Origin: Loxodes magnus
Lineage: Eukaryota > Ciliophora > Karyorelictea > Loxodida > Loxodidae
Direction: 5' to 3'
NCBI GenBank assembly: GCA_946699065.1
Contig: CAMPDV010001259.1
Coordinates: forward strand, 62,001 to 126,000
DNA length: 64,000 nucleotides
The position numbers were made by a program, and so were the translations under genes. The notes beneath the pieces are model-generated. The model had not been told where the DNA came from and did not search any database. It was given only the letters and a program-made list of their open reading frames with translations. Positions 5,916 through 60,349 of the stretch are shown here, piece after piece. Every line of letters starts with the position of its first letter. Position 1 is the first letter of the stretch.

Positions 5916-6653
5916 TCAAGGTAATAGCAAAATTAATTAAGAACTTTAAGATTCATTTTTGATATATTCAATACTCTCTTACGATCTGTGACTTTCACTC
6001 GATGTATTTTCACTTTTTGGTGCCTTAAATGCAAATTTTTACTAATGTAAAATTTATTTTACTTAAAGATCCTTCATTTTCTATGTCCTCTACATGTTAT
6101 TTATCTCTTTCATTTAATCTTCTGCTAATGAAATTGCTATTCCTAAGCATTAAATGATAGACTGAGTTTTATATCTTTCAGAATTCGTATTATTTTCAGA
6201 GGACTGTGTCGAAGCTTCTGATTCTTAAGCACTTATATCTGGAAAGGAGGATTTATTTTTAATAGGAGATTCTTACTCTTCACTTGATTACACGCTTGTT
6301 TTTCCTCATTGCTAGATTAAATTAAATAACTTAAAGTTGTTTTTAATCTTACTCTCTAATATTTTTTCGTCAAATACTCTATTCTTTCCTTCTTCCCACT
6401 TCTATTCTTTTACAGATTGACACATGAATTTATATTCAAAGACTCCTGGTTTGTACAGAAACAATTTTGTAGTCCACAATCCTTCTCCATCATACTACAA
6501 TCTAACACCTTTTGATATATTCCAGTTTCCAAGAAAGTGTTTATCCCCTACTAGCACTATACTTTCATCAGATTTAGTATAGTAATGTATCTTTAAATTA
6601 ACTTAGTAATTATTGCTGACAGGCTCTTTAGCCTAACACAAGGCATATTCCAT
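5916..6653 (-). CDS. CBM20 (starch-binding domain) protein, copy A
   Basis: With TAA/TAG read as Gln, the minus strand encodes a protein of about 245 residues starting MEYALCQAKEP. Residues about 20-115 match the starch-binding module CBM20 in order: VNLKIHYYT, VLVGDKHFLGNWN, VRLQYDGEGLW, EYKFMCQ and KWEEGKNRVFDEK. The conserved LGNWN and KWEEG aromatic positions that contact glucan are present. A Ser/Gln-rich tail follows, with no enzyme domain, so the likely role is binding starch-like storage glucan, or targeting a partner to it. The start is chosen because the paralogue at 14976-15653 has ATG at the aligned position. An in-frame TGA at 6306-6308 aligns with TGG in that paralogue and is read as Trp; the TGA at 5916-5918 is taken as the stop. 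The C-terminal limit is uncertain because TGA is ambiguous. Confidence 0.72.
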
Positions 6654-6740
6654 TTGAGCCTAAAACAAATGAGGATTAGATTCTCTCAACTAAGTAACAC
6701 ATCTAAACATCCTTAAACGAGCAGGAGTTTTATTCCTCTA
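6654..6740 (-). promoter_or_regulatory. Conserved upstream segment of CBM20 copy A
   Basis: The roughly 80 bases upstream of the start codon are conserved with those upstream of copy B. Both contain AAGGATGTTTAGATGTGTTA followed by GTTGAGAGAA. Conservation outside the coding frame suggests 5' UTR or promoter sequence kept in both copies, or simply the edge of a recent duplication. An upstream exon is possible but no convincing splice pair was seen. Confidence 0.35.
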
Positions 6741-9358
6741 ATGCTAGCTTTAATTAATCCAAGTAGACATATTTTATATTTAACAAGCAGTTCCTTCTTA
6801 AATAGCTAGCACTTATAATTAAACTATTATAGTTTAAATAAAGTAAACATATCCATAATACTTAATAAATGTATTCGTTTCCTACTATTTTCAATCTTTA
6901 TTAAATTGAAATTTAATTATCTAAACTCAATTTATTAGTCTACTCTACTTACAGATTTATTAATAAGCTATCTGTTTAAAACTAGAGGATGATAAAGATG
7001 TGTAGAGTAAGGAAGAAGAATTAGAAAACTCATATTGGATAAGAAAGATTTTTAGATAAGATGTATGAAGATAATTAGTTTATTAGTAAATGAAATAGAT
7101 TAAAGGGGAATAAGGTAACTATTAAATTAAAAAATGCTAGCTATATAACTTTAAGAATAATAAAGTTAAGTTGTTATTTAAAATTGATAGATAGCTATAT
7201 GAGTATTTTCAATCAAGGCTATTATGATGTTGGAAGTCTAGCTAGTAATAAAAAGGAGAAGATGGTATCTATCTGTGATATATAGAAGAAAAGGAAGGTC
7301 GAACAGGATATAAAAAATGGGTAATTTGGATGTTAGTCTTTTTGAGCTAGAATGTGTTTAAAAATTATTGAATAAGTTTATTAATTAATTTTGGTATAAT
7401 TTATACTTATAGGCATAAGTCTATCTAATAAATCAAACGATAACTGTAAAACATAATTTTAACCTTAGGACTATTAAAGTGTAATAAATAAATACATTAA
7501 GACATTTACGTGATTTAAGAAGTCAAATTAAATAAGAATTAACTGGCGGTGTGTTTTAGCTAGGATACAATGAGAAATGTAATCAAAAAATATTAATAAA
7601 TCTAAGTAATATAATTATCCTAGTAAAGGCTAGAGATTAATATAGCTAAATATAACTGAGTTGAGAACTAATGAGCTTTTATACTCATATTTATTTATCC
7701 AAATCTAGAATAATATGCATCATGTTCTTTTAAAAGTCTAATATTGAGAGCATATTAATAAGTTGCTTTTAGTTTGATTTTTAATTAATATTCATAATTT
7801 TTGGCATTAAACCCATTTAATAATTCATTTAGCTAAAAAATAAATATAAAAGTTAAATCTTTGAAAGTTGGAATGGAAAATAGGTTTTTACTAGAAAGAT
7901 TTATTAAAAATGATAATTTCATTTTAAAAGCTCTAGGAATAATAGACCTTCTAGTTTACTCATGGTCTTTATAAATGCATGATTGAATGATTAAAGTATT
8001 ATTGATATATTCTATAATATTAGAATAATGAGTTAGGATATTTATCCTATCTAAATTAATTTCAAAGCTTAAATAGACATTTATTATTAACCATCTATAT
8101 TTGTAAATTACATTTATTAAATCCCACTAAATTATGTTTATCATAATAGTCCAAACTTTTTAAGAGTCAATAAGAGCACTTCATCTCATCGCTATTCTTA
8201 TAGTTTTATAATACTGGTTAAGCAATTTCTTAGTAAATCGAGTAGCTATTTACTTTAACTTCTTAGTCAAAAGTTATTAAATCAACATCCAGACTTAAAG
8301 TTCTAAATAATTTTGATGTATTAATAGCTTCTAAATGTATTAACAAAATAAAAGGATAGCAACAAGGATTTTCCTAGCTACTAAGGTTACTTTAATTATC
8401 CTTAAATTAGGATTTTTTAAGCTAATAAGATCTGAGCTGTTTGGCTCGATTTCTTCTTATGTACTCAAACGATTTCTTGCTTTTGAAAGTTAAACTTAGA
8501 AATAGAGTTAATTTATAGGGAGATTTTTTTTGAAGAAAAAAGACGGAAAATTTATTTAATCATAGTAAAATAGTCAAAACAAGTGGGCAGAAAATAGATA
8601 TTTCAGACGTGATTTGAATAAAAAAAATATCTTTCATATGCAGGAAAAAAGGAATAGTATAAAGAAATTATCTGCAAGGGTAAAAATCAAATTATTCGCA
8701 CCTTGTTCTTTCTACATGAATCAGTTCAAACAAAAACAACCTGCAAAGTTCTATTTTCAAGCTAGCAAAGTTAAACTTTTTAAGCTATTAAAAAGCAACA
8801 TGAAAAAAGGTATTAATGAATATTGAAGCGCATGAATAAAAAAAATAACCATATATAAAATGACTTAATAGCTTTATATCAATGATTTTTGTTATATTGA
8901 TAAAAGTCATAAATTAAAACATAATTGATCTATCTTAAATCAATTATTTGATTGTTAGCTAGCTGCTTAAAAATTAAATTAAAGTAATCTATTGTAGATT
9001 AGAGAGCATCTTTAAACTATTTTCTTTGTGGTATATTAAAATTCTATTTGATATATTTTTTATTATTAATTTACTCTTTATTAACCATGATTTAAATAAA
9101 ACCTTTTTATAAGAGATTTGAAATTATTGAGGCATATATCTATCTATAAAAGTTCTTTATCATAATATATATAAACTAGCTTTCATGTTTACAATTTGAA
9201 ATAATTGGACATTCTTTTGAAATTTTCGTCTACTTTATATTTGAATTTTGTCAAGTAATAAAACTAAATGAAAATTTACCCTATCTAGATTATTTATCAT
9301 ATCAACATTTCCAGATTTAATAAATTTTTATTTTTCCATCTTATATATAAATAAATAT
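6740..9358. other. AT-rich stretch, no secure gene
   Basis: No conserved motif was recognised. The frame at 8614-8826 that is open under the standard code is short, Lys-rich and without similarity to anything I know; open length has little meaning here. I see no repeat shared with the rest of the window. Confidence 0.4.
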
Positions 9359-9745
9359 GATTATAGAGCGCGTTCTATCTTGTTGGTGCGCAAATCGTTC
9401 AATATTAATATTAAAAAAAGTGTTCTCATACTTCTTTTTTTTCATTCTAGCCTTCCAATAAGTCACGTCAGCTTCTCCAAGTGGGTTCTACTTATTATAA
9501 ATTATTCTTGAACCAAATGTTCATGTCTTATTGAATAATATCTAAATAAGAAATAGTAATTAAGTTATTAGCAGGCCCGTCAACCAAACGTTCATATTCC
9601 TAGCGAAAGGCCTCAGGCAAGTTAGGCTTGTCCCTTCCGAGCTTGTACATCCTTTCCCGTAGTAGCATCTAGTGCGAGATTACTCTCAATGCAGTATACA
9701 CATACACTGAACCAGGTTACCTGCTAATTTTCCTGATTATGACCG
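9359..9745 (-). mobile_element. SINE-like retroposon, family C copy
   Basis: A roughly 390-bp element read on the minus strand, ending in the shared 3' hairpin (9359-9393, diverged) and an ATTTAT-type tail just below 9359. Its body matches the element at 46386-46781 in reverse orientation: shared blocks include the near-palindrome at the 5' part (TGCAGTATAC.. here), the GCGAGATTACTC block, the CAAGTTAGG block and GCAGGCCCGTCAA. No protein is evident. It sits head to tail with the family D element at 9777-10268. Confidence 0.65.
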
Positions 9746-9776
9746 ACATCCATAATTCTTATAAATAAATAAATTT

Positions 9777-10268
9777 GATTATAGAGCGCGTAGCACTCTC
9801 ATTGGTATGCAGCTCTTTAAAAAAAATGTTTCGTACTGACAAGGATGTTTGTTACTGATAAAATTATCAGATACTGGTAGACCTTGTTCAATACTGGTAT
9901 AATTATTCAGTACTGATAAAAATGTTCAATACTGATATAATTTTAGAATACTCGTAATCTTATCTACTTGTTGGAGGTCTAAGGACATGGCAGGATTGTG
10001 TCTCATTGCATCACCAAAGCAGAGGACGACATGTGTCAATTATGGGTACTTAAATTCCCCACCTCTGATGAAGCTCGCAATATTATTTCTTTTTCGTTCC
10101 AGATTTAAATCTAAACTAAGCCAGTGCCAAAGGTTTAACAATCTTATGTCTCGAGGCCAAACCAAAGCAGAGGAAGACATAAAGTCGATTATGGGTACTT
10201 AACTTCCCCAACCTCTGATGAAGATGACCTTGTTGTTCACCTTCGAACAACTATGGCGGTTTTAAAAA
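9777..10268 (-). mobile_element. SINE-like retroposon, family D
   Basis: Read on the minus strand, this element ends with the shared hairpin (9777-9819: TAGAGCGCGTAGCACTCTC then GGTATGCAGCTCTTTA) and an ATTTATTTATTTAT tail. The body has internal duplications. About 57 bases containing AGCAGAGGA, GGGTACTTAA and CCTCTGATGAAG occur twice (about 10017-10078 and 10160-10225), and a 12-base CAATACTGGTAT-like unit is repeated about five times at 9835-9950. The duplicated block contains the core also seen in family A. The 5' end near 10262 has GGCGG followed by TTTTAAA, similar to the CCCTATTTAAA end of families A and B. Confidence 0.6.
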
Positions 10269-11604
10269 ATATATATAATAAAGTTTATTTATTCCCAATG
10301 TAGTGATCATTATTAACTAGCATACGAAAAAACTAGCTTCAATTAAGCTTAATATTCCTTTTTTCCCTCTTAGTTTGGCATAAATTTCCTTCCTCCAAAT
10401 TAGTTAAATCTTTATTTTTTAAGTGCTATTTAATAAAAAATTCGAGGATAAAGTATTTACTAGATTTGAAAACTTTAAAAGTTTTGAGTAAATGATTTTG
10501 CTGATATGTCAAGAGTATGTCTAACCAACTTACTTATAATTACTCTTTGCTAAAGTATTTTTTCAATTTACTTGATCTTTTTTATTAGAAGGACTAAGTT
10601 AACTGTATAGAAGTATTTTTATTATGGACACATTTTTTCATTTGATTAAGTTTCAAGAATCAACTGAATCTAAGCTTAAGCTTTTATTTGGCTTTCAATA
10701 AATAGATAAAATCTTTCTTTCTGGAGATAAGATTAATGACTAAGCTTTTTAGCTTTAATCAAAGAAACTTAATTAGAAGATAAAAGGAAGGTATTTCTAA
10801 ATTCTACTAAGCACAATAAATTAAATGCTAGCAACTGAAAATATTTATTAATATATACTAGCTCTTAGACAGTTCAACTCAAGAGACTCTAAAATAAGAA
10901 TTAATAAGTATATCAGTTAAATAAGGAAAGATCTTTAGTTGATAGGAGTAGTTATTTAATACTCTTGGTAGAGGTTAAGTTAAATAAGGGTTTTTAAATA
11001 TAAAGCTCTTTTATAGACAATTTAGCCTTTTAAAAATCAATTTCTTATTTAAATTATTAATTACCTTGTCTCAGTTTATATAAGCATAAAGGATATCCTC
11101 AGATAAGTATTATAAATAATCTATCTCTAAAAATAAGCAATAAATTTAATAAAAAATATCTTAAGTTGGAATATCTTTTTATTACTTGCTAATCATTCTG
11201 CTTATACTTCTGAATGGTTTATTGTACAGAGCTTATTTAATTTTACTATTTTTATTTTTTAAAAAGTCTCAAAATATTTAGACTTGAAGCTATTTGGCTT
11301 TTTAGCATTCCTAGCTCTTTTGTTGTTAATTAATTAATTAAAGCATTTTTATTTTGGTTGCTAACTTAATTTAAATTTTTAATCTGCTAATCTTTACTAT
11401 TTTAGCTTTCATTTTACAATCAAGTGCAATTTTTATTTCAAAATAGCTTAGATTCAACATAGCTTTTGAGTTCAATCACAAATTATACCTTTAATCCAGA
11501 TTCTTTTTTTAGTTAATCGATTTAATTTCCTCCAAAGATAAAAAAAGAATTAGCCTTATGATTTAGATTTGTCTTTAATAGTAATTTCTAATAATTGTTA
11601 GATT
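10269..11604. other. AT-rich stretch, no secure gene
   Basis: No domain, repeat or RNA recognised. The sequence between the SINE pair and the GC-rich element is plain AT-rich DNA. Confidence 0.4.
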
Positions 11605-11945
11605 TTAAGTTAATTGGTAATAATTAAAAAGATGGTGGGAGCTGAGATTGACCTTCTGAATCGTACTTTCTGGTTTTATGGCTAGGAACAAGTTCCTTTC
11701 CTGTCGCTGAGAAAGTCCCTGGTCAAAGTCAACCTTTGCAAGGGAACGCCTTCCTTTTGATTATCCACTCCTGGTAGGGGCTTGAAGCCTGGCTGCCCAT
11801 AGCAATGGAGCTCCCTGGCAGCTGCTTTTCGAAAGCAACAGGATATCCCCGTTATCCCATGAAGGGAGTGTTGGGGTCGTTAAACTGCAAGAAGTTGCAG
11901 TCCAAAAACTCTTTTAGTTTAAAATTAAATTAAGTTAATTGGTAA
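11605..11945 (+). mobile_element. GC-rich dispersed element with 16-bp target duplication
   Basis: A roughly 300-bp block clearly richer in G+C than its surroundings runs from about 11621 to 11929. It is flanked by exact direct copies of TTAAGTTAATTGGTAA at 11605-11620 and 11930-11945, a target site duplication. Its inverted relative lies at 56312-56605, alignable throughout (shared words GATGGTGGGAGCTGAG, CTGGTTTTATGGCTAGGAAC, TAGGGGCTTGAAGCCTGGCT, CAGGATATCCCCGTTAT). It lacks the hairpin and ATTT tail of the SINE families. It could be a retroposed structured RNA; I do not recognise the source and see no clear pol III B box. Confidence 0.65.
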
Positions 11946-12350
11946 ATTAAACCCTAACATGGTACTTTTACTAAGCAAACATTTCTTTGTAGACTTAAAT
12001 CTAATTTCTTAAATGATCAATAGTTGATAAGTTGATTCTAGCATTTATACCTAAGACTTTCTTAACTTTAGATTTAAAAATAGCAAACTCTCTTCAATGC
12101 TGATAAGTTGAATAATAAGTTATGGTATAAAATTTAAATTTTGCCTCTAAAGCAAAAATCTATATTTGAGACTTAAAGATTTCTGTCATATAACTAGTTA
12201 AGAAATATTTTACTAACTAGATGCTTTATTGAATTCTAATCATTTAGCTTTTAATTTCTTTCTTAACTTAATCTAATGAATAATAATTATAAACTAGAGG
12301 AATAGCATACTTGAACGGAAATCTTGACTTAAAATTAAAATTTTAGGTAA
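11946..12350. other. Spacer, nothing recognised
   Basis: AT-rich sequence between the GC-rich element and an ORF1 copy. Nothing recognised. Confidence 0.4.
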
Positions 12351-12359
12351 CTGATTTTA

Positions 12360-13074
12360 ATAAACATTTATAGCAAGATAATTTCTTTATTTCTATTAGA
12401 ATTTCTAACACTTCTGATAAAAATGTCATACGCTTCCACAGCAGAAACATTTCTTTTTTATTTTGAATTATTTTCCTTGATTTGTTTGCTCTTTCTAGGC
12501 TTCGATTTCCATTTGTATAGCTCCAGTTTCACTTTAATTTTCTTATAACTTTGCAATTTCTCTTCTACTTTTCCGAGTCTGTTATCCAGTTCAGTCTGTT
12601 TCTAAAGTTAATTTTAGGATTCGTTAGTCTGACTTTGTGAGATATTCCAAAAGGCGTTAAGATCTCTTTCCTAGGACATAAGTCTTGACTCAATTCCTTC
12701 TGCTAGTTTCTGCTTTGCCATCAACATATCATTGTCCTTCTTCAATCTCTTACCTCTTCCTTGAGGTTCACTACCACTTTGATGAGCTATTCCTTGCTCA
12801 TCTGGCCAGAAGGGTTGAACTCTGATACCTCCTGGTGGAGAACAGAAATCATCTGTTTCCTCGGTTTCTCGCTTGAGGTTGGAGTTTCCGTGTGTATATT
12901 CTTCAAGGTTGGCTTTCGTTCATTTTGTTAGATTCCAAGTTGTTAGTTCAGTGTTGGTTAAGGTTGTGATTGAGAAGATTGTTAAGATTATTAAAATTTG
13001 GTTTCTTGCTTCCTCCATTCCTTTTTGGCTTAGGAAGAGGTGGTATAGAAGCCTGACTTGAAACCTTCAACCAT
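12360..13074 (-). pseudogene. LINE ORF1 (zinc-knuckle nucleic-acid-binding protein), type 1
   Basis: The protein starts MVEGFKSGFYTTSSQAKKE at 13074, has a Gln-rich linker, then QMSKEQLIKVVVNLKEEVR, a coiled coil with LKKDNDMLMAKQKL, and a CCHC zinc knuckle CFCCGSV-x-HFYQKC near the C-terminus (12400-12440). This is the layout of ORF1/Gag-like proteins of non-LTR retrotransposons, which coat element RNA. The residue x is encoded by TGA at 12426-12428, the same place as in the copy at 34227-34229. One frameshift lies between EEVR and LKKDND. A TGG at 12647-12649 (AFWNISQ) aligns with TGA in two other copies. No ORF2 follows, so this is a fragment or an ORF1-only element. Confidence 0.7.
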
Positions 13075-13843
13075 TGTTTTTAAATTTACCTTTTAAAATA
13101 AATCTAATTTATGCACTACTTCTTAGACTCTAATTAACCACTATTAAATATAATTTCCTTAACTATTTTTATTCATCTGTTTATAAATTAAAGCTTGCTC
13201 TGTTAAAAGATACTAGTGATGATAAATTATTTTAGCTTAACCTAACTTTTGTCTTAATTTTTATTTACATTCCTCTTAAGAACTCTTTAACTATAAATAT
13301 TTATTTTGACTATTTTAAGTTAATCTGGCTATCTCAAGAAGGCTTATTATTAAATTCTCAGGCAACTTTTGCTAATTTATTTTTCATCTAGTTTATACCT
13401 TCATAAGTAAAGATTAATCTCTCCTATTTACTAAAATGCTTATGTATTCCCTTAAAGAGATATATAAATAATTGAGTTGCTTGTTCTTAGCCTTCTAAGT
13501 TTTCTATAATTCCAATATTTTTTCTCTTGCTTTCTAAACATTTTATAGAGTTATGACCTTTAATGGTTTCATTAGTAAAAAAGAATTATAAATAAAGCTG
13601 AAATACTCGGTTTATACTAATGGCTAAAAGGCATTTAGTCTTCCAAAGAGTTTGAATAAACAAAGGCAATGCAAATGGTTTAAAATAGTATTTTCATGAG
13701 GAAAATGATTACTATGGACAAGACAACTGATTTAGACTGCTTTAGCAAACCTTTTAGATAAGATAGAAAAATAGTTCAAAATGATCTATTCTATTTTATT
13801 GTAGAACAGAGCAAATATATCTAGAGATTATAATACTTCCTAT

Positions 13844-14638
13844 ATGCATAAACTTGGTGAAGAGCTAAAAAGATTGTTAGATCAGTAATAGTTAATAAGC
13901 TTTACAGTTGCTGATGAAAAATTTTCCTTCATCCAAAAATATTTAAACATAAATAAGACCTCGAAGACACCTAATCCTATTAGCTGCAAATCAATTAGTT
14001 ATAAACTTAATTTAGGCTCTTATCTTAATAATGCTTTAAAAGTAAATTTCAAAAATAACTCAACCTAAATTATGAATAACAGAGGAATTATATAAAGCCA
14101 AATGATTTGAAAGCTTAAATTTCCAAGTTAATACTTTAATAAACTATGTCTATATGAAGTTTTAATGACAAGCAATTCTTTTGTTTATTATCTTCAATAT
14201 TACACATCAAAATGCTTATTTCTTTATACTATTGAGAACTTATTAAGAAAACACTTTTGGATTTATTAAAATCCATAATTATTATAAAATCAATTAGTTG
14301 ATTAGATCTTATATATGCTTGATAGGTTTAAATTAATAGCAGTAGACTATCTCTAATGCTAATTATACATCTCATATCACATATTATCTTAACTAGATGC
14401 TTTTAATTTTATCCTGTATATTAAAATTTAAGTCTAACTAATGTATAAATGCTAAAATGCTTTCCATATTCCACTGTCTCTTTTTTCTCCTTACTAATAA
14501 AGGATCTAACAAACCTTTATTTATGTGATTTATTATGAAAATAGTTAGCCTGCACTATATCTCCTCTTACTGGTTTATAGCCTTTAATATCTATTCCTTA
14601 TAAAAAATAAGTCAAAAGTAGCAAATTTAGTAGAATGA
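13844..14638 (+). CDS. Candidate protein of unknown function
   Basis: The frame ending at TGA 14636-14638 gives about 264 codons with a single internal TGA (14108-14110), although some eleven further TGA triplets lie in the other two frames. Residues read like ordinary protein, for example MHKLGEELKRLLDQQQ, ISFTVADEKFSFIQKYL and LMTSNSFVYYLQYYTSKC. The frame can be extended upstream to about 13760. No family was recognised and there is no signal peptide or clear membrane run. The ATG at 13844 is arbitrary. Support is the avoidance of TGA only, so confidence is low. Confidence 0.3.
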
Positions 14639-14889
14639 TAAATCTTAAGCTATAATACTAAGTATTATGCTCTATCCTTTAGATTTTATACCTACTCTTA
14701 TTACATTTTTCTAAGTGCTTCATTAAGTATTCAATAAACTTGCTAATGTATAAATTAAAGAATGATTAAGATTTGTTTAAGTTAATTAAACTATTTTAGC
14801 GAAATTCCAGTGACAAGCTTTTAATTGAAGATTGCTAGCTTTATTATAAAAATAAATGCATAGTAGGGTAAGCAAACAAAGGGTGTAAC

Positions 14890-14975
14890 AGCAAAATAAA
14901 AATTCTGCTAATCTAAGGATGTTTAGATGTGTTACCTAGTTGAGAGAAATGAATTTTTACTTGTATGAAGCGGAG
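14890..14975 (+). promoter_or_regulatory. Conserved upstream segment of CBM20 copy B
   Basis: Counterpart of the segment upstream of copy A: TCTAAGGATGTTTAGATG, then GTGTTACCTAGTTGAGAGAA. The alignment carries a one-base length difference just before the start codon, which argues that it is untranslated. Confidence 0.35.
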
Positions 14976-15653
14976 ATGGAATACGCTTAGTAATCAGCTA
15001 AAGAAACTGCTATCAATCATTACTAAGTTAATTTGAAGATACATTACTATACTAATCCTGATGAAAGATTAGTGATAGTAGGGGATAAGGCTTTTCTTGG
15101 AAACTGGAATATATCATAAGGTGTTAGATTGTAGTATGAGGGAGAAGGGTGGTGGTCTGCAAAATTGTTTCTGTACAGGCCAGGAGTCTTTGAATACAAA
15201 TTCGTATGTCAGTCTATAAAAGGATAGAAGTGGGAAGAAGGAAAGAACAGAGTATTTGACGAAAAGATATTAGAGAGTAAAGTTTAAAAAAGGGTGAAAG
15301 TATTTAATTTAAACTAGAAATGGGGATAAACAAGCGTGTAATCAAGTGAATAATAAGAATTTTAAACTAAGAGTAAATCCTCTTTTCTAGATATAAGTGC
15401 TTAAGAATCAGAAGCTTCTACATGGTGTTCGGAAAATAGTTTGAATTCTGAAAAATCTCCATACTTGGACTTATAATCATCAAATGGAATGAAAGATCTT
15501 AATTAAATAAAATAAATTCAAAAAAGTTAATTTCAGGTAAATAAAATAGATATAACAAGATCCTTCAGTTAAAGAAACATTAATTAGAAGAAAGATATCA
15601 CGGAAATCCTTAAACAATGCAACTACAGCAAGCAAAAGTCTTCAAATATTTGA
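14976..15653 (+). CDS. CBM20 (starch-binding domain) protein, copy B
   Basis: Read with TAA/TAG as Gln this is a protein of about 225 residues starting MEYAQQSAKETA. A complete CBM20 fold signature covers residues about 18-110: VNLKIHYYTNPDERLVIVGD, AFLGNWN, VRLQYEGEGWWSAKLFL, GVFEYKFVCQ and KWEEGKNRVFDEK. The tryptophans of LGNWN, GWW and KWEEG are present. A Ser/Gln-rich tail follows (ISAQESEAS is shared with copy A), then the copies diverge. The Trp of QKWGQTS is TGG at 15321-15323, whereas copy A has TGA there. TGA at 15651-15653 is taken as the stop; if it were Trp the frame would run to about 15860. CBM20 modules bind starch or glycogen; no catalytic domain is attached. Confidence 0.75.
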
Positions 15654-25776: not shown

Positions 25777-26600
25777 ATGTCAGCATTAAAATCAGGATTT
25801 TTCACGGCTCCAAAAAGGCAGGAGTTAGTGGTATTCTAGAGAGGCTAGGACCAGGAAAAGGGAATCAAAAGGGTCATCCATCAAATCGAATCTTCCACTT
25901 TTGAGGAAAAACCTAGGTAATAGGCTAAAAGTATTATGCGCTCGGAAGTCTCCAATCTCATCACAGAATAGCAAATAAACTTGATTAAATGATAAAAATG
26001 GTGCTAGATCTCCAAGAAGAGGTCAAAAAATTGAAGAAAGATAATAAGAAACTGATGGAAAAATTTGTAATGAAGAGGAAAGAGAATTGAGACTCATGAT
26101 CTAAAAAAGAGACCTTGATATATTTAAATATTTCACAAGATCTGAACAATTAATCATAACACTAACAATAGAAGCAGAAAGAACTGGTCAACAAGATAGA
26201 AAAAATAGAAGAAAATCAGCAAAAAGTGCAGCGTTAAATGGACCTTCAAGAATAAGGAAATGACCCAATGATAATCGAATAGAAAAGAACTCAAGATTTA
26301 AACTTAAACGAGAATCAAAAGACGTTATTATTGTAACTCTTGAACGCATCTTTGGAAAAAAGGCTAGAAATTAAAAAAATTTAAATAAGAAAACTGAAAC
26401 TAATAGAAGAATTTGGAGAATAAGAAAAAGATGCAACAACAACCAAAACTAGCAAGGAAAAGATTACAGTGCAACAAATTTGAAAACATTTTAAAGAAAA
26501 AAGATACCAATCATTATCTAAGCGAAAGGATATCTCATTACAGTATGTATAGCAAGGAGAAGAGTAGTAGAAAAATTTAAACTTTTATATTTAGCCTATT
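25777..26600 (+). pseudogene. LINE ORF1, type 1, decayed
   Basis: Begins MSALKSGFFTAPKRQEL and contains SEVSNLITEQQINLIK, then after a frameshift VLDLQEEVKKLKKDNKKLME and LNISQDLNNQSQ, all aligning with the ORF1 copies at 12360-13074 and 33595-34480. The coiled-coil part is well preserved but the zinc knuckle expected near 26400-26500 is not recognisable. It lies upstream of an ORF2 3' fragment (27100-27560) in the same orientation, so the two may be remains of one LINE with a decayed middle. Confidence 0.6.
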
Positions 26601-27989: not shown

Positions 27990-28609
27990 TAAGAGGCAGA
28001 CTAATAGGTAACTAAGGAAAAATAGTAGATGGATTAATGTTCGACCTAAGTAAAGAAGAGAATTTTATTTTTGAACAATACTGCACGACAATAAAATTAG
28101 AATTAAAAATTGAAGACAAAAATATATTTATAGATGATGGTAATAATAATCAAAAAGGGAAGAAAAACATTAATCGTGCAATTTGAGAACATAGAGTATA
28201 CATAGAAGATAGAGAAAGAATGGAGTAAATGATAACAACTCTACAGTATAGAAAAACATGATTTGATGAATATATAGTAGGACCACCCAACTACCTGAGA
28301 TACAATAAAAATAGAAAAGAAGAAATACGCTACATATTTAGAATAAGAACGAGATGTAATGGGAGCCAGGATTGTTTAAAAGAAAGACACCTAGTTGCGA
28401 CAAGCAAATGCCCTTTCTGTAATGATGCAAGAGAAAACGAAAGGCATATCATAGAAAAATGCTCAGATTACAAAGAATCAATAAAACGTAGATAGATAGA
28501 AGACAGAAGAACAAGAGATATTGAAGAAGAAAATGATGAAGATATGGAACTAATAAGAGAAGAATTTTTATTACCTGAAGGCTTTCTTGAAGAAATAGAC
28601 ATGTATTGA
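27990..28609 (+). pseudogene. LINE ORF2 C-terminus, second type (5'-truncated copy)
   Basis: A coherent frame runs from about 27990 (GLMFDLSKEENFIFEQYCTT) to TGA at 28607-28609. It contains TWFDEYIVGPPNYLRYN, RTRCNGSQDCLKERH and KCPFCNDARENERHIIEKC. The last is the CxxC...H...C finger typical of the C-terminal zinc-binding region of non-LTR reverse transcriptases. Two internal TGA codons fall at likely Trp positions (T-x-FDEY and AI-x-EHR), while the final TGA ends the protein after EEIDMY. The polymerase domain is absent, as expected for 5' truncation during target-primed reverse transcription. The 3' hairpin and tail follow directly. Confidence 0.7.
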
Positions 28610-28680
28610 AACATTTATTAAAGAGCTGCGCACCAACGAGGTGCTACGCGCTCTATAATCAAATTTATTTATTTATTAAA
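28610..28680 (+). mobile_element. LINE 3' end: hairpin and ATTT tail shared with SINEs
   Basis: Eleven bases after the ORF2 stop begins AAAGAGCTGCGCACC, loop AACGA, GGTGCTACGCGCTCT, ATAATC (28620-28660), then an ATTTATTTATT tail. The arms pair as AGAGC with GCTCT, GCG with CGC and CACC with GGTG, with small bulges. The same structure ends all four SINE families in this window, so it is most likely the site recognised by this LINE's reverse transcriptase. Confidence 0.7.
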
Positions 28681-29699: not shown

Positions 29700-30491
29700 A
29701 TCCGCAGTTCAAATAATAGGTCTAAAAGTTTAGTCCTTCTTATCAATTGTCTTGAGTTTCTCTTCCTTTCATTTCCTACCCCATAGCTGATTACATTAAA
29801 GTAAATCTACACTTGAAAATTCTCCCTTCTCGATCACATCATAGCCTCTGAGCTCTTTGTAACTCTCTAAGTCAGTATTATCTTTTAAATTATTGAATTT
29901 ATCTACAATTTTTTTGCAGATGATAACTACTTTTACAAAAGTAACATCGCTTTTTAGGTTTTCAGTTCTATTATATGTTACTATCGTCCTTTAGTAAATC
30001 TTTTCATTTTCAATGTCCATTCTATTATGCTAGGGAATCAGCTGACTCTATTGGCTTTATTTGCTCTATATTATGTTTTCAAGGAATTAATTTTACTCCT
30101 AAATCTTCTTTACTTAGGAGTTCGTCTGACTAAGTTGATCTTTTTAATAATTTCAGAGAGCAGTGTGTTCTCTTTCCTAATTGGCCATTCTAAGGTCTAG
30201 AGTATCCTAAAGCCCGTATTAAATCTGCTCAGTCAGCTTTTCATTTTCCTTTCGTAATTTTCTAACCTCTTCCTGGAGGTTTAACACCTTGACGAGCTAA
30301 TCCATGCTCATCTGACCAGTAGGGTTAAATTCGGAGACCTCCTGATGTAGGATAGACTTGACCTACTTCCGAGGCGGGAGTTGTCCCAGTATGGGTGGTT
30401 TTGAAGGTTTATTTGTTTCCTAACACTATTGTTAGGCACCAACCTCCTAGTTCTTTGGAGCTGGAAAGAATCCCTTTCGGAGGTTCGGCAT
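29700..30491 (-). pseudogene. LINE ORF1, variant with CCHC knuckle
   Basis: From ATG at 30491 the minus strand reads MPNLRKGFFPAPKNQE, a Pro/Gln-rich stretch, then LHQEVSEFNPTGQMSMDQLV and a coiled coil VLNLQEEVRKLRKENEKL. This matches the type 1 copy at 12360-13074, although the N-terminus differs. Near 29900-29960 a shifted frame gives the zinc knuckle CYFCKSSYHLQKNC, a perfect C-x2-C-x4-H-x4-C. One frameshift separates it from the coiled coil. The TGA at 30153-30155 (ALxNYQK) aligns with TGG in AFWNISQ of the 12.6 kb copy. Confidence 0.65.
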
Positions 30492-30494
30492 TTT

Positions 30495-31210
30495 TTTTTT
30501 GTTTATTAAAAAAAAATTAATTTAGCACTCTTATATAAGCTTTAAAAATTTTCCAAATTTATTCCGTCCCAAAATTTTCCTATAGTGTAAAACTCAGAGC
30601 AAAAAAAGGTTTTTTTTATTTTCGCAATTTTTAAGCTTTAGATAACACGAAAATTATAAAGGAAATAACATATATTAGCTATTATTGTAAATTTTTTTTT
30701 CTTGCTGTAAAAAACTTTAATTTACAAATAAAAAATTAATATGATGATATGAAATTCAATATATGCTTAAAATAAAATAACATGAAACTTAACAATTTAA
30801 TTAATCATCTCAAAATTCAAAAAAATCCTTGGACTTAGAACACAATTAAAACTTTTTTTATTAATGATATACTTAAAAATAAAAAAAAAATTTTGACTTA
30901 GAAATAAATAGCTTAAAATTAGAAAATTTTTTATAAAATAATTTGGAAAGTTATTTAAAAAAATAACTTAGAAAATTAACTTAAATTTATTATAATTAAT
31001 TAAATACTAATCAAAAAATATTATAAACTTGAAAAAGATTACAAAGCTAAAATCTTTTTTAACTTTAATAATGAAATCTATGAAATCAAGAAGAAACATA
31101 CTAAAAAATAAAAAAGAGAAATTTTAATTCTTAGATATAAAATTTTAAATATTATGTTAAAAAATTTCGCACTTCTATACTTCTTTATTCTCAGCATTCT
31201 TAAGCACACC
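30495..31210. other. A-rich intergenic island
   Basis: Very A/T-rich, with long A and T runs and almost no G+C. It separates an OR​F1 copy from the 3' end of the WD40 gene. No gene signal. Confidence 0.5.
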
Positions 31211-31212
31211 AT

Positions 31213-33369
31213 TCATTCTACAATTCTAAAATTTTAATCCATAGTCAGCATACATTCTATTCCAATATGTCTAAATAACTAATTAAAAATTAAACTTACC
31301 TAGACTTATTACTAACTAGCATTATTCTAAACGACATTTAATAACCTTCCCATATTCCATCTTCTAATGACGTAATCTTTTGTTGAACTTCCATTTTCTC
31401 AATGACCTGTACTCGATACCAACCAATTGTTGTCCTTAGAGAGAGATAAACTTCCTGCATAGTCCGAATTATTTAAGACACAGACACATTGCCCATTATT
31501 GATATTTCATATTCTTATGGTCTTGTCATAAGATCCTGATAAAATTTTCTTATTGCTCATTGAAAAAATAACTGATTCCACATAGGAAGTGTGTCACCGA
31601 AAATACTCTGAATGACTGGATATAGCCACAGCATATACATAATGTGTGTGACCACTCATGGTCTTACAGGTACCTGTCTTGACGTCCCATAGTTAGTACA
31701 TTGTTAAGTCTTAGAGTTCCATAGTCTCACCGTATTAATCTGCACTTCCCGATACGATGAACTCTGAATGACTGGATATAGCCACAGCATATACATAATG
31801 TGTGTGACCACTCATGGTCTTACAGGTACCTGTCTTGACGTCCCATAGTCTCACCGTCTAATCTGCACTTCCCGATACGATGAACTCTGAATGACTGGAT
31901 ATAGCCACAGCATATACATAATGTGTGTGACCACTCATGGTCTTACAGGTACCTGTCTTGACGTTCCATAGTCTCACCGTCTAATCTCTACTTCCCGATA
32001 CAATGAACTCTGAATCACTGGATATAGCCACAGAATATACAGAATTAGTGTGACCACACATGGTCTTACAGGTACCTGTATTGACGTTCCATAGTCTCAC
32101 CGTACAATCATGACTTCCCGATACGATGAACTCTGAATCACTGGATATAGCCACAGATAATACAGAATTTGTGTGACCACTCATGGTCTTACAGGTACCT
32201 GTCTTGACGTCCCATAGTCTCACCGTCTCATCATAACTTCCCGATACGATGAACTCATTGTTAGGTGAGATGGCAACCGAAGTGACAGTTGAGGAGTGTC
32301 CAGTGAATATGTGAGGATATTCCGTAGTGATAGAAGTGAGATTGGCGTTAGATAGGTCGCAGTTTATGAATTTAGTGTTACGGAGGTTAGCTGATGTTAG
32401 GTTGGATTTGGAAAAATTGCAGTTTGTGAAGGTGGTGTCCGAGAGATCTGAGTTAGATAAATCAATGTTTTGGAAATTTTATTACGTAAAGTTGTAATTC
32501 ATGTAGTTTAACATTGTTATAGCATTTGCAGCTGCTTATTACATTTAAGGTTGATTCTTAGCTATATTTTAAATCTATAAAAGAGATTATTTTAGCATTT
32601 ACTACGGTAATTCCTATTCCTTTCAAATCTTGAAATTTACTTAATCTAACTAATCCCTTACTTGTATAAATTTATCTAATAACTAACTCTATAACTGCTA
32701 AACTTAATTCACTAGCTACTTTATATACACTTAATACTATTCAATTGTCTTTTAATTTTTTTAATTTTAAACTCTTAATTTGCTATTTTCTTAAATGTAT
32801 TGTTTAAAGTTTATTATATTTTTTGTCTCAGTCTAAGCCTTTTAAATTTCAGCTTTAGTTTTTTCATTTAACTAATTTCAATCTAAACTTTGCATATCAA
32901 CATTTTCATCTCCTGCTTTTAATTTATTTTAAAGATCTTGTAATTAAACTCTCTCTTAATTATATGATTCTGATAAAGTTTTCAATTCTCTTTAAATGCT
33001 GTAAATGCTAGCCATATGCTATTATTCTAAGTCTTGGATAACTTAATTCACGCATTAGATTTTGGCATTATTTAAATTTAACAATTCTACATTTATCTCA
33101 TTCTCAAGCGATTATAATAGGTCTATTTTATTTGCTATCATGTTTTATTTTATAGTGTGTACTAACTTTTCATCACTTCTAAGCAAGGCAGGATGTTTTT
33201 TAGTAACTTAACCACAATCATTCATTAAACACTTTATTTACTACGACTATTAATGTTACCTTTAAGCACATTCAAAACACATCAAGTGATTACATGGTAG
33301 TATCATTGGTATCTTAACTTATATATCAAACTAACCCTTACAATCTTAACATTCGCTAATTTTAGACAT
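31213..33369 (-). CDS. RING-coiled coil-pentapeptide-WD40 protein
   Basis: A long frame, coherent under TAA/TAG = Gln. Domain order: RING-type finger at residues 1-50 (MSKISECQDCKGQFDI, LPCNHLMCFECAQ, KCLMNDC); Gln-rich coiled coil to about residue 280; pentapeptide-like repeats at about 290-345 (NIDLSNSDLSDTTF, CNFSKSNL, SANLRNTKF, CDLSNANL); then about seven WD40 repeats (SGHTNSVLSVAISSDSEF, IVSGSHDCTVRLWNV). Such a layout suggests a ubiquitin ligase whose propeller binds a target; this is inference. Internal TGA occurs at LDxNQLNEK, FKIxKEQELP, TIRIxNINNG (31507-31509, the canonical WD Trp) and GHxENG. WD units of 123 bp are nearly identical. A possible 21-nt GT-AG intron lies at 31279-31299, and TGA at 31213-31215 ends the frame homologous to the paralogue's end. 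The last repeats carry small insertions and deletions, so full integrity is not certain. Confidence 0.75.
31610..32270 (-). repeat. Near-identical 123-bp tandem repeats (WD40 units)
   Basis: Copies of a 41-codon WD40 unit begin (plus-strand landmark GAATGACTGGATATAGCC or GAATCACTGG) at 31610, 31766, 31889, 32012 and 32135. Spacing is exactly 123 bp except for one 156-bp interval that carries a 33-bp insertion. Units differ at only a few bases, far less than WD40 repeats usually do, which points to recent duplication or gene conversion inside the gene. Confidence 0.8.
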
Positions 33370-33594
33370 CTTAAAACTTTTTTATAACCTACCAAAAACA
33401 CTGAAATTAATATACTAACTTAAACCTTTAAACTTAGAAATAAACCTTTTAAACACTTAAGCACCATATAATTAAAATTTAGCTTTTATTAATAAAAAAT
33501 ATAATCATACAATAAAAAAAGGATTATTAAGCTTATTTTAAGATAAATCTATAGTTATGTTATTTTATAATTTTATGCTAATTTTGAAAAAAAA

Positions 33595-34480
33595 ATGGAA
33601 GGATTCAAAAGAGATTTCTACACCACCTACAAAAAGTTGGAGGGAAATCTGAATCCAATCTTGGATAGTCTTCTTTCCCTTAACCCTGACCTTTTTTCTT
33701 AATACTAATAACCTGGAGAGGAACAGAAATAAGATCAGAAGATAGCGCATGCAACATTCCAACCTCATAAGAGAAACCAAGGAAGAAGATGAAGTTTGGT
33801 CTTCACTAGAAGGTCTCAGAGTTTAATTCTTCTAGACAGATATGTATGGAATAGTTCATCAAAGTGGTACTGAACCTCCAGGAAGAGGTCAGGAAGCTGA
33901 AAAAGGACAATGACAAATTAATGGAGAGTCTGAAGAAACAAGAGGAAATCGAATCTAGACTCATGTCCCAGAAAAGATATTTAAAAGTTTTCTGAAGCAT
34001 TTCATAAGATCAAAACAACCAATCTTAAAGCTAGCAATAGAAGCAGACAGAAATTGGGAATAGAATAGAGAAAATAGAAGAAAACTAGAAAAAATTACAA
34101 CTTCAAATGAAGATAAGAGAGCATAAAAGTGACCCAATATTGATTGAAGAAGAAATTATCATAAATTCTTAAAGAAAATAGAGGCAAATAAAGATTAGAA
34201 AAAAATGCTTTTGTTGTGGAAGCTTGTGACATTTATATCGGAAATGTAAGAAGATCTAGCAGAAAAAAAGAACTATTGGATCCAAAAAGAAAGACTCGAT
34301 AAGAAGTAAGATTAAACCGAATGTATTGCAGTCCAATTGGAGAAATATATAAAATCAAGAAAGATGCGATACAACAAGAACAGGAAAGGAGAGGAGAGGA
34401 AGGTAACCTGGAAAATTCCGAGTTCCCAATATCGCTAAAATTGGTGCTGCCAAAAAATTTTATTTAACAGCAAGGAACAT
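33595..34480 (+). pseudogene. LINE ORF1, type 1
   Basis: Starts MEGFKRDFYTTYKKLEG, related to the MVEGF..GFYTTS start of other ORF1 copies. A frame change follows, then FIKVVLNLQEEVRKLKKDND and IESRLMSQKRYLKVF, then TGA at 33993-33995 where the 12.6 kb copy has TGG (AFWNISQ). Next comes SISQDQNNQSQ, IEKIEENQKKLQ and the zinc knuckle CFCCGSL-x-HLYRKC at 34205-34250, with x encoded by TGA (34227-34229). After another frame change SPIGEIYKIKKD matches the NGEIYKKK of type 2 ORF1. At least two frameshifts make it a pseudogene. Confidence 0.65.
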
Positions 34481-37290: not shown

Positions 37291-37607
37291 ATAAATAGGG
37301 AAGAGCAATACTCCAATCGAAATTGACTTAAGAACTGGCACCAAAAGGTAACCTTATACGAAGAACTGTGCAAGAATCTTGGCAGGAACCAAGAGAAGAC
37401 AAGACTGAAGAGACATCAAGTAACGTTAATGATGAAAGATGCCAGATATTAAGGTCTCTTAAGGAGCATTTCGATAACGGCCATATAGAAGACAAGATTC
37501 GCAAAGGATGCTAGCACTGTGAAAGGTTTCAGAAATGAAATTTTTTAGCATTAAAAAATCTTTTTTAAAGAGCTGCGCTTCATTAAAGTACTACTCGCTC
37601 TTTAATC
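37291..37607 (+). mobile_element. SINE-like retroposon, family B copy 2
   Basis: Starts AAATAGGGAAGAGCAATAC and ends with a diverged hairpin (37567-37607: AAAGAGCTGCGCTTC, ATTAA, AGTACTACTCGCTCT). Shares ATCTTGGCAGGAACCAAG and GATGAAAGATGCCAGATA with the other family B copies. A tail of T-rich sequence follows. Confidence 0.65.
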
Positions 37608-41600: not shown

Positions 41601-42429
41601 TATTAATCAACTCTTAAATTTAATTTTAAATTTTAAGGCTAATGGAGTGTTCCCTTAAAAGATTCATAACCCCCTGTATTACCTCTTGCAGGGTCTCGGA
41701 CTCCCCGGTGTCTCCACCTAAGTTCACTTCCGGCTTTCCGAATGATCTTTGAGTTATCTTTTTCCGTCATAGCTAACCATCCGAGGATGGGTAAAACGTA
41801 GTCAATTAGTTTCAAATCTTTTATCTAATTTGCATATTCTCCTTGCATCGTCTTCAAAGGTGATATTAGCTGCCGCATATGTGGCACTTCTTTTTGAAGA
41901 ACTTTTATTTAGTCATGGGCTGTTCTTCTATTATCATTTGATCTTGATTTTTTTAGGATTGTTAATTCTCTAATTTTGCTAATCTTTATTTAATTTCTAT
42001 AATTTGCTAGAAGGCATTTTCATATTTTTGAAAATCTATTTCCATTTGTTCATCTAGTCTTACGATATCGCATTCTATTTCTTAATACCTATTATTAATG
42101 TCCTATTTTGTTATAAATTTAGAGTGCGGCTTCTCATCTTCGACATGATCTTGTAAGTCTTGTTATATGTTTATGACGTAGTGTTCGAGATTCTCTACTT
42201 TATCGGTGTAGTCGAAAATGATCTCTACAAGTTATTCCTTATCTAACTTCATTAGTTATTCGAATGTATGCCTCTTTTTTGGAATTTTGGAAGGTAGTTA
42301 TTTTTCTTCTGAGATTTGGCAATATTATTTTTTTTAGATCTTGGTTGGTGTTTGTTAGTTCTAGAAAGAATGATCAGAAGGGCTATGGATTGCCTTTTTT
42401 ATAAGAAAACCTTTGTTCCAATTCTCCAT
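41601..42429 (-). CDS. LINE ORF1, type 2, open throughout
   Basis: From ATG at 42429 one frame runs without interruption: MENWNKGFLIKKAIHSPSD, a Gln-rich linker, a long coiled coil (EQLMKLDKEQLVEIIFDYTD, EIECDIVRLDEQMEIDF, IKQRLAKLENQ), then the zinc knuckle CHICGSQYHL-x-RRC at 41845-41886. After it come RQKI-x-NQLTTFYPSSDGQ and a basic/acidic tail. The two x residues are TGA (41854-41856 and 41812-41814). The related ORF1 at 51.4 kb has TGG at both sites, so they are read as Trp. The protein would bind element RNA in the cytoplasm. It precedes ORF2 in the same orientation, as in a bicistronic LINE. The 3' limit is uncertain. Confidence 0.75.
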
Positions 42430-43009: not shown

Positions 43010-45211
43010 CCAGTGTCCTAGCTGGACAAATCATTATATTGAGGTACTCATTAAGTGAAAAGGATGTCATGTGGTTGTTAATCATGCTTATAGAGTATAT
43101 AGGTAGTTTTTTAAGTGGATTAAACTGTAGCTTGTAGGATTTGTTAATCAGTTTTCAATATCTGACCTGAATAGCTCTAAAACTTTATTCAGGAATCTCA
43201 AAATTTGGAATTTTAGTAAAAGAGATTCAGTGAACGAAATCAGTTCAATAAGAAAGTAAAGGAGATAAATGAAATATAGATGAAACAATAATCTCAAAAG
43301 GAAAGTAGAAGAATACTTTTAGTAGAAAATTAAATATCTTCCAGTCAATTTTGAGAAAGACCATTTGATATTAGTTAAAGATCTAGATAATTACATATAA
43401 AAGGAGTAATAGTTAAATATAGGATTTATTAAGGCTACTTATAAAGTTAATAGATATCTAAATAAATCAGTAGAAGTCTTAGGGTTTTACTAACTAGTAA
43501 GCAAATCGAATTAATTATATTTCAAATTAAGAATAGTTCCGTTAAATTCTTAATGAAATAAGTGACATAAAGAGAGTATAAAGCTAAGCTAGCAATGATA
43601 ATAAAAGATTATTTATATAGGAACAAATTTTCAATATTTTAATATTCCTAAAGCAAAAAGAAAATGGGATATCGATGACGAAATTAGCAAATATACTAAT
43701 TGATTTATATTTCAAAGAAAGACACTAATCAATTAATAATATAATTATATGCATTCTTAAGAAATTTAATAAGTAAGAGTGTAGCCAATTGCTTCTACTT
43801 AGTCGATTTAAGATTCGAGAAATTTAACTTTTAATTAGATACGATAATTCCTTAATGAATTTAAATAATTAAATGTATCTTTTTAAAGTTTAAGTTAAAA
43901 TTCTTTAAGCAAACTAGAATTATTAAATAGACTCCTATGTCATTGGAACTGTCTCAAATAAGTGACGAAGAATTTTAATAAAAACTCAAACAAATATTTA
44001 AACTAGCTAAAAACCAGCTAACACTAAGCAGCTGCTAATGTCATGACTTTACTCAGTTAGATGAATTTCTAATTTAAGATACTAAATTTCTAAGGTATCA
44101 GCTTATCTAATGCTGACTTATCAGATATCACCTTCAATAACTGTAATTTCTCCAAATCATATCTCCAATTATCAAACCTCCGAAACTCCAAATCCCTCAT
44201 CAACTACGATTTCACCAACGCTTATCTCATATCCGTCCCATCTGATTATTCTCATATTCTCCAAGGTCAGAATTCCTATGTCTTTTCAGTAGCTATTTCC
44301 TCTGAGAATAACTTAATAGTATCTGGTAGTTATGAAAAAAACATAAGAATTTGCAACTTAATAACAGAAGAGTGTAAAATTTCGATGAGTGGTCACACGT
44401 CTTAAGTTAATTGATGTAGCTATATCAAGTGACGGTTTGGTTATAGTTTCCGGAAGTCATGATGAAACTGTAAGAATTTACAACTTAATGACATAGGAGT
44501 GCTTGAGTGAGATTATTGATCACATATCTGATGTCTCTTCAATAGCTATATCAAGTGACGGTAAGGTCATGGTTACCGTAAGCGCAGAAAAAACTGTGAG
44601 GAGATTAGATGGAATCACAGAGGAGTGTTTAAATGTGATGAATGGTCACACGTCTGTAGGGTCTGAGCTGTAGCTATCTCTCATTATAACAACTTAATAG
44701 TATATGGAAGTGCTGATCAAGCCGTTCGACTATGTAATACTAATATTGGTTAATGTTTTTAGGAATTTTCAGGACATTCTCATTATATGTTATCGGTTAA
44801 TTTCTCAAGCGATGACAGATATATAATATCTGGTTCATATGATAAAAATATAAAGATTTGGAATGTATCATACAGTTAATCAGTATGTACATAAATTTTT
44901 ATGATTTAGCTTGTAATTTGGCCATATTAAGAGACAATAGTTATTTTGTATTGAGTATAAGCCATTGTTATATAGTAATTCACATATGGTCAAGTGTCAA
45001 GGAGATGGAATATCAGAAGATTATTGACCTAAAAACGAGATATTGGCTTGAATAAGTAATAATAAAGTTAGGTAAATTTAAATTTACATTATTATTTTAT
45101 TAATAGATTGGAATAGAATATATAGTGATTATGGATTAAAAGATTCAGGAATATAATAAGGTTAATACTTAGATGAGTGTGGAGGATAGATGTAGATATA
45201 TTAAAAATTGA
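43010..45211 (+). pseudogene. Paralogue of the WD40 protein, frameshifted
   Basis: The plus strand encodes a relative of the 31.2-33.4 kb gene. A Gln-rich coiled coil is followed by HQAAANVMTLLSQMNF, where the intact gene has QQAAANAITMLNYMNYNF; then pentapeptide-like ISLSNADLSDITFNNCNF and SYLQLSNLRN; then WD40 repeats ([59 protein letters not shown]). Frame changes near 44408 and 44655 break the propeller. A 35-nt GT-AG intron at 45072-45106 sits where the paralogue has its possible intron (exon ends NKQQQSQ here, ASQQQVQ there) and is needed to reach the shared IGIE frame, which ends at TGA 45209-45211. The RING finger is not recognisable at the start, so the 5' limit is approximate. Confidence 0.6.
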
Positions 45212-47283: not shown

Positions 47284-47409
47284 AATTATAAAAATAATAA
47301 GATTTACGGTGATTTACCTGATTGAAAGATGGAATCACTATAATTCATTTCTATTATTATTATTATTATTAAATAAGCTTCAAAATAATAAAATTAAATA
47401 AATAAATTG

Positions 47410-47765: not shown

Positions 47766-47774
47766 TATATATAA

Positions 47775-51163: not shown

Positions 51164-51696
51164 AATCCATGCTCCTAGAAACCTAAACCAGGCTGCAATG
51201 AATTTCAGAATTTCAGAATTCGATAGGCAGCTGGAACAATTATACGAATCGAATGAAAATATTCATATCAAATTGGAAAAATTAGAGACAAGTGTAAAAT
51301 AATAGGCTATGCAATCTATTCCAATGGAGATCGAATAAGAGAATAATAAGCAAATTGAACAAACTAAAGAGAAATATTTTAGGAAAAAATGTTACATCTG
51401 CAGGAGAACAGACCACCTATGGAGACGATGCTGGAAGAGAAAGAAGATTTAATAGAAAATATGGAATGACCTAACCTTTTACCCAACCAGGAATGGAGAA
51501 ATTTATAAGAAGAAAGCAAGCTATATGAAGAGACAACCATTCTGAAAACTTGTCAGTGAAGGGAGGAGAAGACCACCTAGAGATCAAGTTCCTATTGGTT
51601 GGATAGGGAAGTAGGAAGCTTTTAAGTAGACGATCCTTCTTTAACACTTTAATTTAATTTAATTTAATTTAATTTAATTTAATTTAATACTTATAA
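51164..51696 (+). mobile_element. ORF1-only retroelement, 5'-truncated, with target duplication
   Basis: Direct copies of TAATACTTATAA at 51164-51175 and 51685-51696 bound this insertion. Inside is the C-terminal two-thirds of a type 2 ORF1 (NQAAMNFRI, RQLEQLYESNENIHIKLEKL, the knuckle CYICRRTDHLWRRC at 51390-51431, QKIWNDLTFYPTRNGEIY, RDQVPIGWIGK). About eight AATTT repeats follow (51651-51688). No ORF2 sequence lies between ORF1 and the tail. The Trp codons of HLWRRC (51420-51422) and KIWND (51462-51464) are TGG, and align with TGA in the 42 kb ORF1. A TGA in QPF-x-KL replaces CGA of the 57 kb copy. Confidence 0.75.
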
Positions 51697-52840: not shown

Positions 52841-52842
52841 AA

Positions 52843-56609: not shown

Positions 56610-57247
56610 TACTACTATTATTTTTATAAAATTAGAATAAATGAATTAAAACTATGAAAATATGTTTAATTTTAAGTGAGAATTAAATTTTACTATAATT
56701 CTTTAAAAAATCTAAAATATAAAAATAATTAATTAATTGACTTTTTACCACTGCTAATAAGATTACCATGAATAAGAGCTTAGTGCTTAAAAGAAGTATG
56801 CACTTCGAACTTGCTTGGATCTTCACTGTTATGAGCCTTGTTATTTTAAGGTTATTTTCTTGATTTATTCCTTTAAGATAAATCCAATTTATTTTTATAA
56901 TCTCATTGATTACTTTTTTAAAAATAGGGATCTTTTTCATTTAATTGTGAATATTTTTATCTATAAAACAATCCTTCTTAATTGCAATAAATCCTGAATC
57001 AATTTTCTCATTATTTTCCTATTATTTTCTTTTCTCTTGTCTAAATTAATAATAACTTAGTACTTTATGTAATTTCCGCTTGTAATAGTAACATATTGTT
57101 ATTCTTCGTTAAGGAATATATTTTGCTATAGATGCTGTTCAATTTACATTAGGTCATTTAGTATTTAGAGTTTGTGTTTTTTAAAATTTCAGGTATTTAA
57201 TTAATCTTATAATCAATTCTATCTATTAAATTATACCTTAAACAAAA
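56610..57247. other. AT-rich stretch, nothing recognised
   Basis: The overlapping opposite frames at 56683-56940 and 56815-56997 have no recognisable product. Confidence 0.4.
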
Positions 57248-59738: not shown

Positions 59739-59976
59739 TTTGAATAATAATTTATTTTAATTAACATTTTTACTTTCTCATCTATATCATCTATATCTTA
59801 AAAGACCAATGAAAGTTCTTTTATTTAAATTACTAGCGGCTAAATTTTTTCAGACTTTGATATTTTTTAATTAATCTAGAAATATAAAAATTAAGAATCA
59901 ACTTTAGGATTTTTATATATAGTTAATCCCTATAACTAAAGGAGCTATTGCCATAAATCATATAAATAATAAATTG

Positions 59977-60340: not shown

Positions 60341-60349
60341 TAAAGATTA

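Follow-up and report, generated by a model that had tools for sequence, protein, structure and literature searches.

Analysis of the reading frames in a 64,000-nt stretch of contig CAMPDV010001259.1 (positions 62,001 to 126,000 of the forward strand, referred to here as the window) indicates that in-frame UGA codons are probably sense codons and, most simply, that they would specify tryptophan. The first of these conclusions is statistical and not biochemical, and follows from the fact that frames survive TGA far more often than the frequency of frameshifts allows. The window is AT-rich and ciliate-like, with a G+C content of 25.8% overall and 33.4% across seven coding segments, and it holds pieces of retrotransposon open reading frame 1 (ORF1), a pair of genes with CBM20 domains, and two WD40 genes (Table 1). 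We consider it likely that this is nuclear DNA of a ciliate using a karyorelict-type genetic code (NCBI table 27). That UAA and UAG (UAR) encode glutamine while UGA serves as both a tryptophan and a stop codon is already published for karyorelicts, including Loxodes, and thus the phenomenon itself is known.

When translated with table 11, the window contains no frame of 200 codons, and with table 4 it contains a single one, which is an off-frame reading of a WD40 tandem repeat. Protein families emerge once UAA and UAG are read through, including CBM20, WD40/pentapeptide, and several retrotransposon ORF1 sequences. The open frames of CBM20 genes A and B and of ORF1 type 2 copy b carry 22, 24 and 24 UAR codons, respectively; the CBM20 copies match PF00686 with E values of 4.7e-14 and 6.5e-15, and they align over 552 nt (184 codons, 17 UAR positions among them) with no gap. 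Because frames are kept and proteins are obtained through so many UAR codons, UAA and UAG are shown to be sense codons in the window. Glutamine is the likeliest reading of UAR: among ORF1 pairs compared in the right frame, the only pairs used for codon-partner counts, UAR faces UAR 21 times, and its 79 other partners include 19 Gln, 18 Lys and 8 Glu codons. In the CBM20 block, UAR is common to both copies at 8 of the 17 positions.

If UGA were only a stop codon, a TGA and a frameshift would both be null mutations, and the ratio between them would therefore have to equal the mutational ratio, whatever selection had acted earlier. The neutral reference consisted of 14 pairs of non-coding repeats (at least 150 alignment columns, identity of at most 95%) with 775 substitutions and 91 frameshifting gaps, although these pairs are not independent of one another and the placement of gaps is set by blastn scoring. 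From the measured mutation spectrum and the sequences present here, 5.5-6.3 frameshifts are expected per new TGA. A cruder estimate, based on 130 TGA codons that differ between repeat copies in six frames and were tallied by hand, gives approximately 4.2, and for this reason a second expected TGA share (1/5.2) was used alongside the first (1/6.8). Counting by eye in coding relics, where following the frame relies on homology, we observed 16 in-frame TGA codons and 13 frameshifts. Five of the frameshifts occur in WD40-2 and two, one, one and four in ORF1 type 1 copies a to d, with none in the other elements; a local insertion in WD40-1 is internally out of frame yet restores the frame. Omitted from the 16 were the TGA at 12742 (after a 1-nt deletion), 29962 (ambiguous frame) and 44664 (at a WD40-2 frameshift), the TGA codons at gene ends, and those past the alignable part of each ORF1. 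With an expected TGA share of 1/6.8 this excess has a binomial probability of 4.7e-7, and with 1/5.2 one of 1.8e-5. Merging sites common to several copies (14 of 27 events) gives 6.6e-6 and 1.5e-4, and additionally removing 51543 and 31594 (12 of 25) gives 8.1e-5 and 1.1e-3, whereas a hypothetical 8 of 21 would give 7.4e-3 and 3.5e-2.

Individual frames behave similarly. From its Met codon onward, ORF1 type 2 copy c contains three TGA codons and no frameshift in the 223 codons tested (P no higher than 9e-4 under decay, taking the most favourable age), and WD40-1 retains 439 codons with four TGA and no net frameshift (P at most 1e-4), but these single-frame values are optimistic because both frames were chosen for being open. 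The CBM20 pair has diverged to 83.5% identity over 562 ungapped nt, or about 93 substitutions; the neutral ratio predicts about 11 frameshifting indels, and none is observed. The median ratio of nonsynonymous to synonymous differences (pN/pS) for this pair is 0.63 (interval 0.42-0.96), and the frame of gene B continues for 129 codons beyond the TGA at 6306-6308, as far as the TGA at 5916-5918. The C-terminal tails of the two proteins show moderate homology, with 1 of 2000 shuffles equaling the score, and since an off-phase reading scores nearly as well (59 versus 63.5) this homology was not relied upon.

The identity of the amino acid was addressed at 31507-31509 in WD40-1, where a TGA occupies the canonical WD40 tryptophan site. 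When ten residues were tried at this position, PF00400 gave 37.5 bits for Trp, 36.0 for Tyr, 35.0 for Phe and 31.0-32.7 for the other seven; the TGA at 31399 lies within the tested segment and outside the PF00400 stretch (residues 1-30). A sequence-only reading of the window had proposed that UGA encodes tryptophan on the grounds that TGG and TGA exchange at homologous sites in unrelated genes, which chance nonsense mutation alone would hardly explain. All 12 of the codons it listed are present. Its conclusion remains likely by way of the TGA-to-frameshift ratio and the WD40 site, but the swap argument itself fails, because TGG faces TGA at 26 of 127 codons in non-coding repeats as well, more than twice as often as it faces TAG. 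Neither can the TGA of the ORF1 zinc knuckle (12426, 34227), which it also cited, be counted as a conserved tryptophan: the residue there is Tyr (TAT) in type 1 copy c, Asp in type 2 copies a and b, and Tyr in type 2 copy c, and thus this TGA has no bearing on a tryptophan meaning. Within the window, a tabulation of residues opposite in-frame TGA, of the kind that had been recommended, places Trp at 6 of 13 sites with a homologous partner (6306, 41854, 41812, 33993, 30153 and 31507) and other residues at the remaining seven (Table 1); the TGA codons at 32623, 28184 and 28259 have no such partner.

Several observations weigh against the assignment of these meanings. The seven partnered TGA codons that lack a Trp partner are one, and the share of 6 in 13 is not significant by itself, because neutral decay alone predicts that up to 29-43% of new TGA codons derive from TGG. 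In the non-coding repeats (4,686 alignment columns, all frames and both strands), TGG is paired with TGG 47 times, TGA 26 times, TAG 11 times and other codons 43 times. When ORF1 copies are compared pairwise in the right frame, each pair of copies being counted instead of each site, TGA stands against TGG four times and against other non-TGA codons nine times (TAT 3, ACG 2, and TTA, GTA, AGA and TTG once each). ORF1 type 2 copy b has four TGG codons and no TGA. Beyond the TGA of CBM20 gene B, pN/pS is 0.76 with an interval (0.32-1.73) that takes in 1, and gene B considered alone, with one TGA and no frameshift, is not significant (P up to 0.057). WD40-1 has been rearranged twice, by a net insertion of 33 nt near 31700 and at a deletion junction at 31594, and hence may itself be decaying. 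With regard to UAR, the other 9 of the 17 CBM20 positions have no CAA or CAG partner and three of them pair with AAA, and the domain scores obtained with UAR as Ser (55.2 bits), Gln (55.0), His (54.9) or Lys (54.8) do not separate glutamine from the rest. Finally, published passages on karyorelicts give UAR as Gln and UGA as stop, without use as Trp (PMC6935857).

UGA may also end genes in the window, as the frames of CBM20 gene A, CBM20 gene B and the ORF2 piece meet TGA at 15651, 5916 and 28607, respectively; no TGA precedes the tail of ORF1 type 2 copy b.

The in-frame TGA codons might instead be explained under the common ciliate code (table 6), in which UAR encodes Gln and UGA is the only stop; they would then be nonsense mutations in dead copies of transposons and genes, such as a germline (micronuclear) genome could contain. 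The frameshifts in WD40-2 and in the type 1 ORF1 copies would be expected of such relics, as would the finding that TGA is the most frequent change of TGG in non-coding repeats and the seven TGA codons that do not face Trp; in a young, truncated copy one TGA derives from CGA, and the open ORF1 copy b lacks TGA altogether. Under this code, however, TGA would be as null as a frameshift, and its several-fold over-representation relative to frameshifts, itself a statistical and not a biochemical argument, runs counter to it. So do the maintenance of a single frame through three TGA codons in ORF1 copy c and four in WD40-1, and the persistence of both the frame and conserved residues beyond the TGA of CBM20 gene B. 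We therefore regard the table 6 explanation as rather unlikely.

A code of the Condylostoma type (table 28), which adds to table 27 the ability of UAA and UAG to stop translation near transcript ends, is served equally well by the coding evidence. It would also accommodate ORF1 type 2 copies a and b, which reach a TTTAA tail with no in-frame TGA after their last shared codons and have TAG and TAA codons just before the tail (copy a bears the mutational TGA 51543). The TGA ends of CBM20 genes A and B and of the ORF2 piece speak against it, as does the heavy load of long interspersed nuclear elements (LINEs) in both nuclei reported for Loxodes (PMC11441545), and we give this code very little credence. 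Scarcely more credible is an undescribed ciliate lineage that independently combined sense UAR with frequent sense UGA (about one third of transposon Trp codons), tolerated also at Tyr and Cys positions, such that UGA would have a looser meaning than in known karyorelicts.

Under the karyorelict-type code that we favour, UAA and UAG are sense codons, presumably for Gln, and a UGA within a gene would likewise be sense, presumably for Trp. A UGA close to the transcript end would terminate translation, which is consistent with the window, the mechanism being that described in the literature. In the karyorelict and heterotrich cases on record, UGA is read by near-cognate decoding with a tRNA-Trp whose anticodon is CCA and whose anticodon stem has 4 bp, and termination prevails near the transcript end. 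A change from TGG to TGA in a coding frame would then be synonymous and could accumulate, generating TGG/TGA pairs. As several of the copies are decayed transposons, some TGA codons, that at 51543 among them, would be plain mutations. These considerations suggest that the retrotransposons of such a genome carry an ambiguous codon.

Table 1. Coordinates of the genes, retrotransposon pieces and codons discussed in the text
Feature	Position	Strand	Description
CBM20 gene A	14856..15653	+	265 codons, 0 internal TGA, 6 TGG; ends at TGA 15651-15653
CBM20 gene B	5916..6770	-	284 codons; internal TGA 6306-6308 opposite TGG 15321
WD40-1, pentapeptide-like head	31335..32652	-	439 codons open; TGA at 32623, 31594, 31507, 31399
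WD40-2, frameshifted relative	44025..44900	+	TGG 44859-44861 homologous to TGA 31507-31509
ORF1 type 2 copy a	51168..51632	+	5'-truncated, 98.2% identical to b; CGA to TGA at 51543-51545
ORF1 type 2 copy b	57216..58178	-	open 321 codons, 4 TGG, 0 TGA
ORF1 type 2 copy c	41643..42429	-	262 codons, 0 frameshifts; TGA 41854, 41812 (Trp in b), 41767 (Tyr in b)
ORF1 type 1 copy a	12386..13071	-	2 frameshifts; TGG 12647; knuckle TGA 12426
ORF1 type 1 copy b	33592..34290	+	1 frameshift; TGA 33993 (Trp in a), 34227 (knuckle)
ORF1 type 1 copy c	29860..30515	-	1 frameshift; TGA 30153 (Trp in a)
ORF1 type 1 copy d	25777..26400	+	4 frameshifts; knuckle TGA 26341
Probable ORF2 C-terminus	28040..28609	+	internal TGA 28184, 28259; ends at TGA 28607-28609 before 3' hairpin
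TGG sites checked	15321, 51420, 51462	+	
TGG site checked	12647	-	
TGA sites checked	6306, 41854, 41812, 30153, 31507, 12426	-	
TGA sites checked	33993, 34227	+	
TGA with non-Trp partner	41767		Tyr (TAT)
TGA with non-Trp partner	51543		Arg (CGA)
TGA with non-Trp partner	31399		Cys (TGT), aligned by eye
TGA with non-Trp partner	31594		Gly expected; rearranged junction
TGA with non-Trp partner	12426, 34227		Tyr in copy c
TGA with non-Trp partner	26341		Val in copy a, Leu in copy b
Hairpin module	28620-28658, 53157-53195, 37567-37605	+	further diverged copies also present
Hairpin module	47412-47451, 59979-60018	-	

The ORF1 copies bear a zinc-knuckle-like motif, named by eye, and the piece at 28 kb has a zf-RVT match that is below its cut-off and fits an ORF2 C-terminus. 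Copy b of ORF1 type 2 has the form of an ORF1-only element: it lacks an ORF2, and its frame enters a (TTTAA)n-like tail with no in-frame TGA ahead of it. The 5'-truncated copy a (51164-51663, plus strand) ends at that tail too. A hairpin-like module of 39-40 nt (AAAGAGCTGCGC...GCTCTATAA) with an A/T tail behind it occurs at multiple sites, one of them (28620) directly after the ORF2 end (28607). Folding z-scores for four copies are -3.5, -0.7, -2.0 and -2.4, and a LINE reverse transcriptase may recognise the module as a common 3' end. It also ends each of three copies (47395-47793, 52823-53213 and 59963-60357; 86-88% identical) of an interspersed repeat of about 390 nt. In WD40-1, a blade has been amplified as a 123-nt tandem repeat (31605-32350, minus strand) whose copies are 61-95% identical to the reference copy.

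Outside the CBM20 and WD40 genes, Pfam scans of 35 proteins, which covered portions of the window, gave nothing above a family cut-off, and the proteins scanned showed neither a reverse transcriptase nor an endonuclease domain. The best matches below cut-off elsewhere in the window (IS1 transposase, EnY2 and an Ig-like model) are regarded as chance. ARAGORN found no tRNA gene in the window, Rfam gave no match at gathering thresholds, and collections of viral and genome contigs yielded no relatives, one of the viral-contig queries having been made in the wrong frame. Among six telomere-like repeat patterns searched on one strand, GGGGTTTT alone is present, twice.

Comparison with known systems places the window closest to the karyorelicts, and Loxodes or another karyorelict is its most likely source. 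Karyorelicts including Loxodes are described as using table 27, with UGA as the sole stop codon but read as Trp where the poly(A) tail is distant (PMC11441545), and a tRNA-Trp with a 4-bp stem is described for Loxodes and others (PMC13092985). The window resembles the table 27 systems of Loxodes magnus (PMC11441545) and Parduczia sp. (PMC4967479) in its sense UAA and UAG, most simply Gln, its tolerated in-frame UGA, best read as Trp, and its apparent UGA gene ends. For Loxodes magnus, coding sequences of 33.5% G+C (33.4% here), more than 30,000 repeats classed as LINEs and introns with a modal length of 17 nt are reported (PMC11441545), and the window likewise holds retrotransposon pieces. UGA usage in Parduczia is 0.12%, whereas its share is higher here (16 UGA and about 30 UGG in the frames), perhaps because transposon copies dominate. 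In Condylostoma magnum (table 28), as in Parduczia, UAR is Gln and UGA is Trp, with peptide evidence for Condylostoma, but all three codons also act as stops there (PMC4967479). The Blepharisma code shares UGA as Trp with the window, and differs from it in retaining UAA and UAG as stops (PMC6935857).

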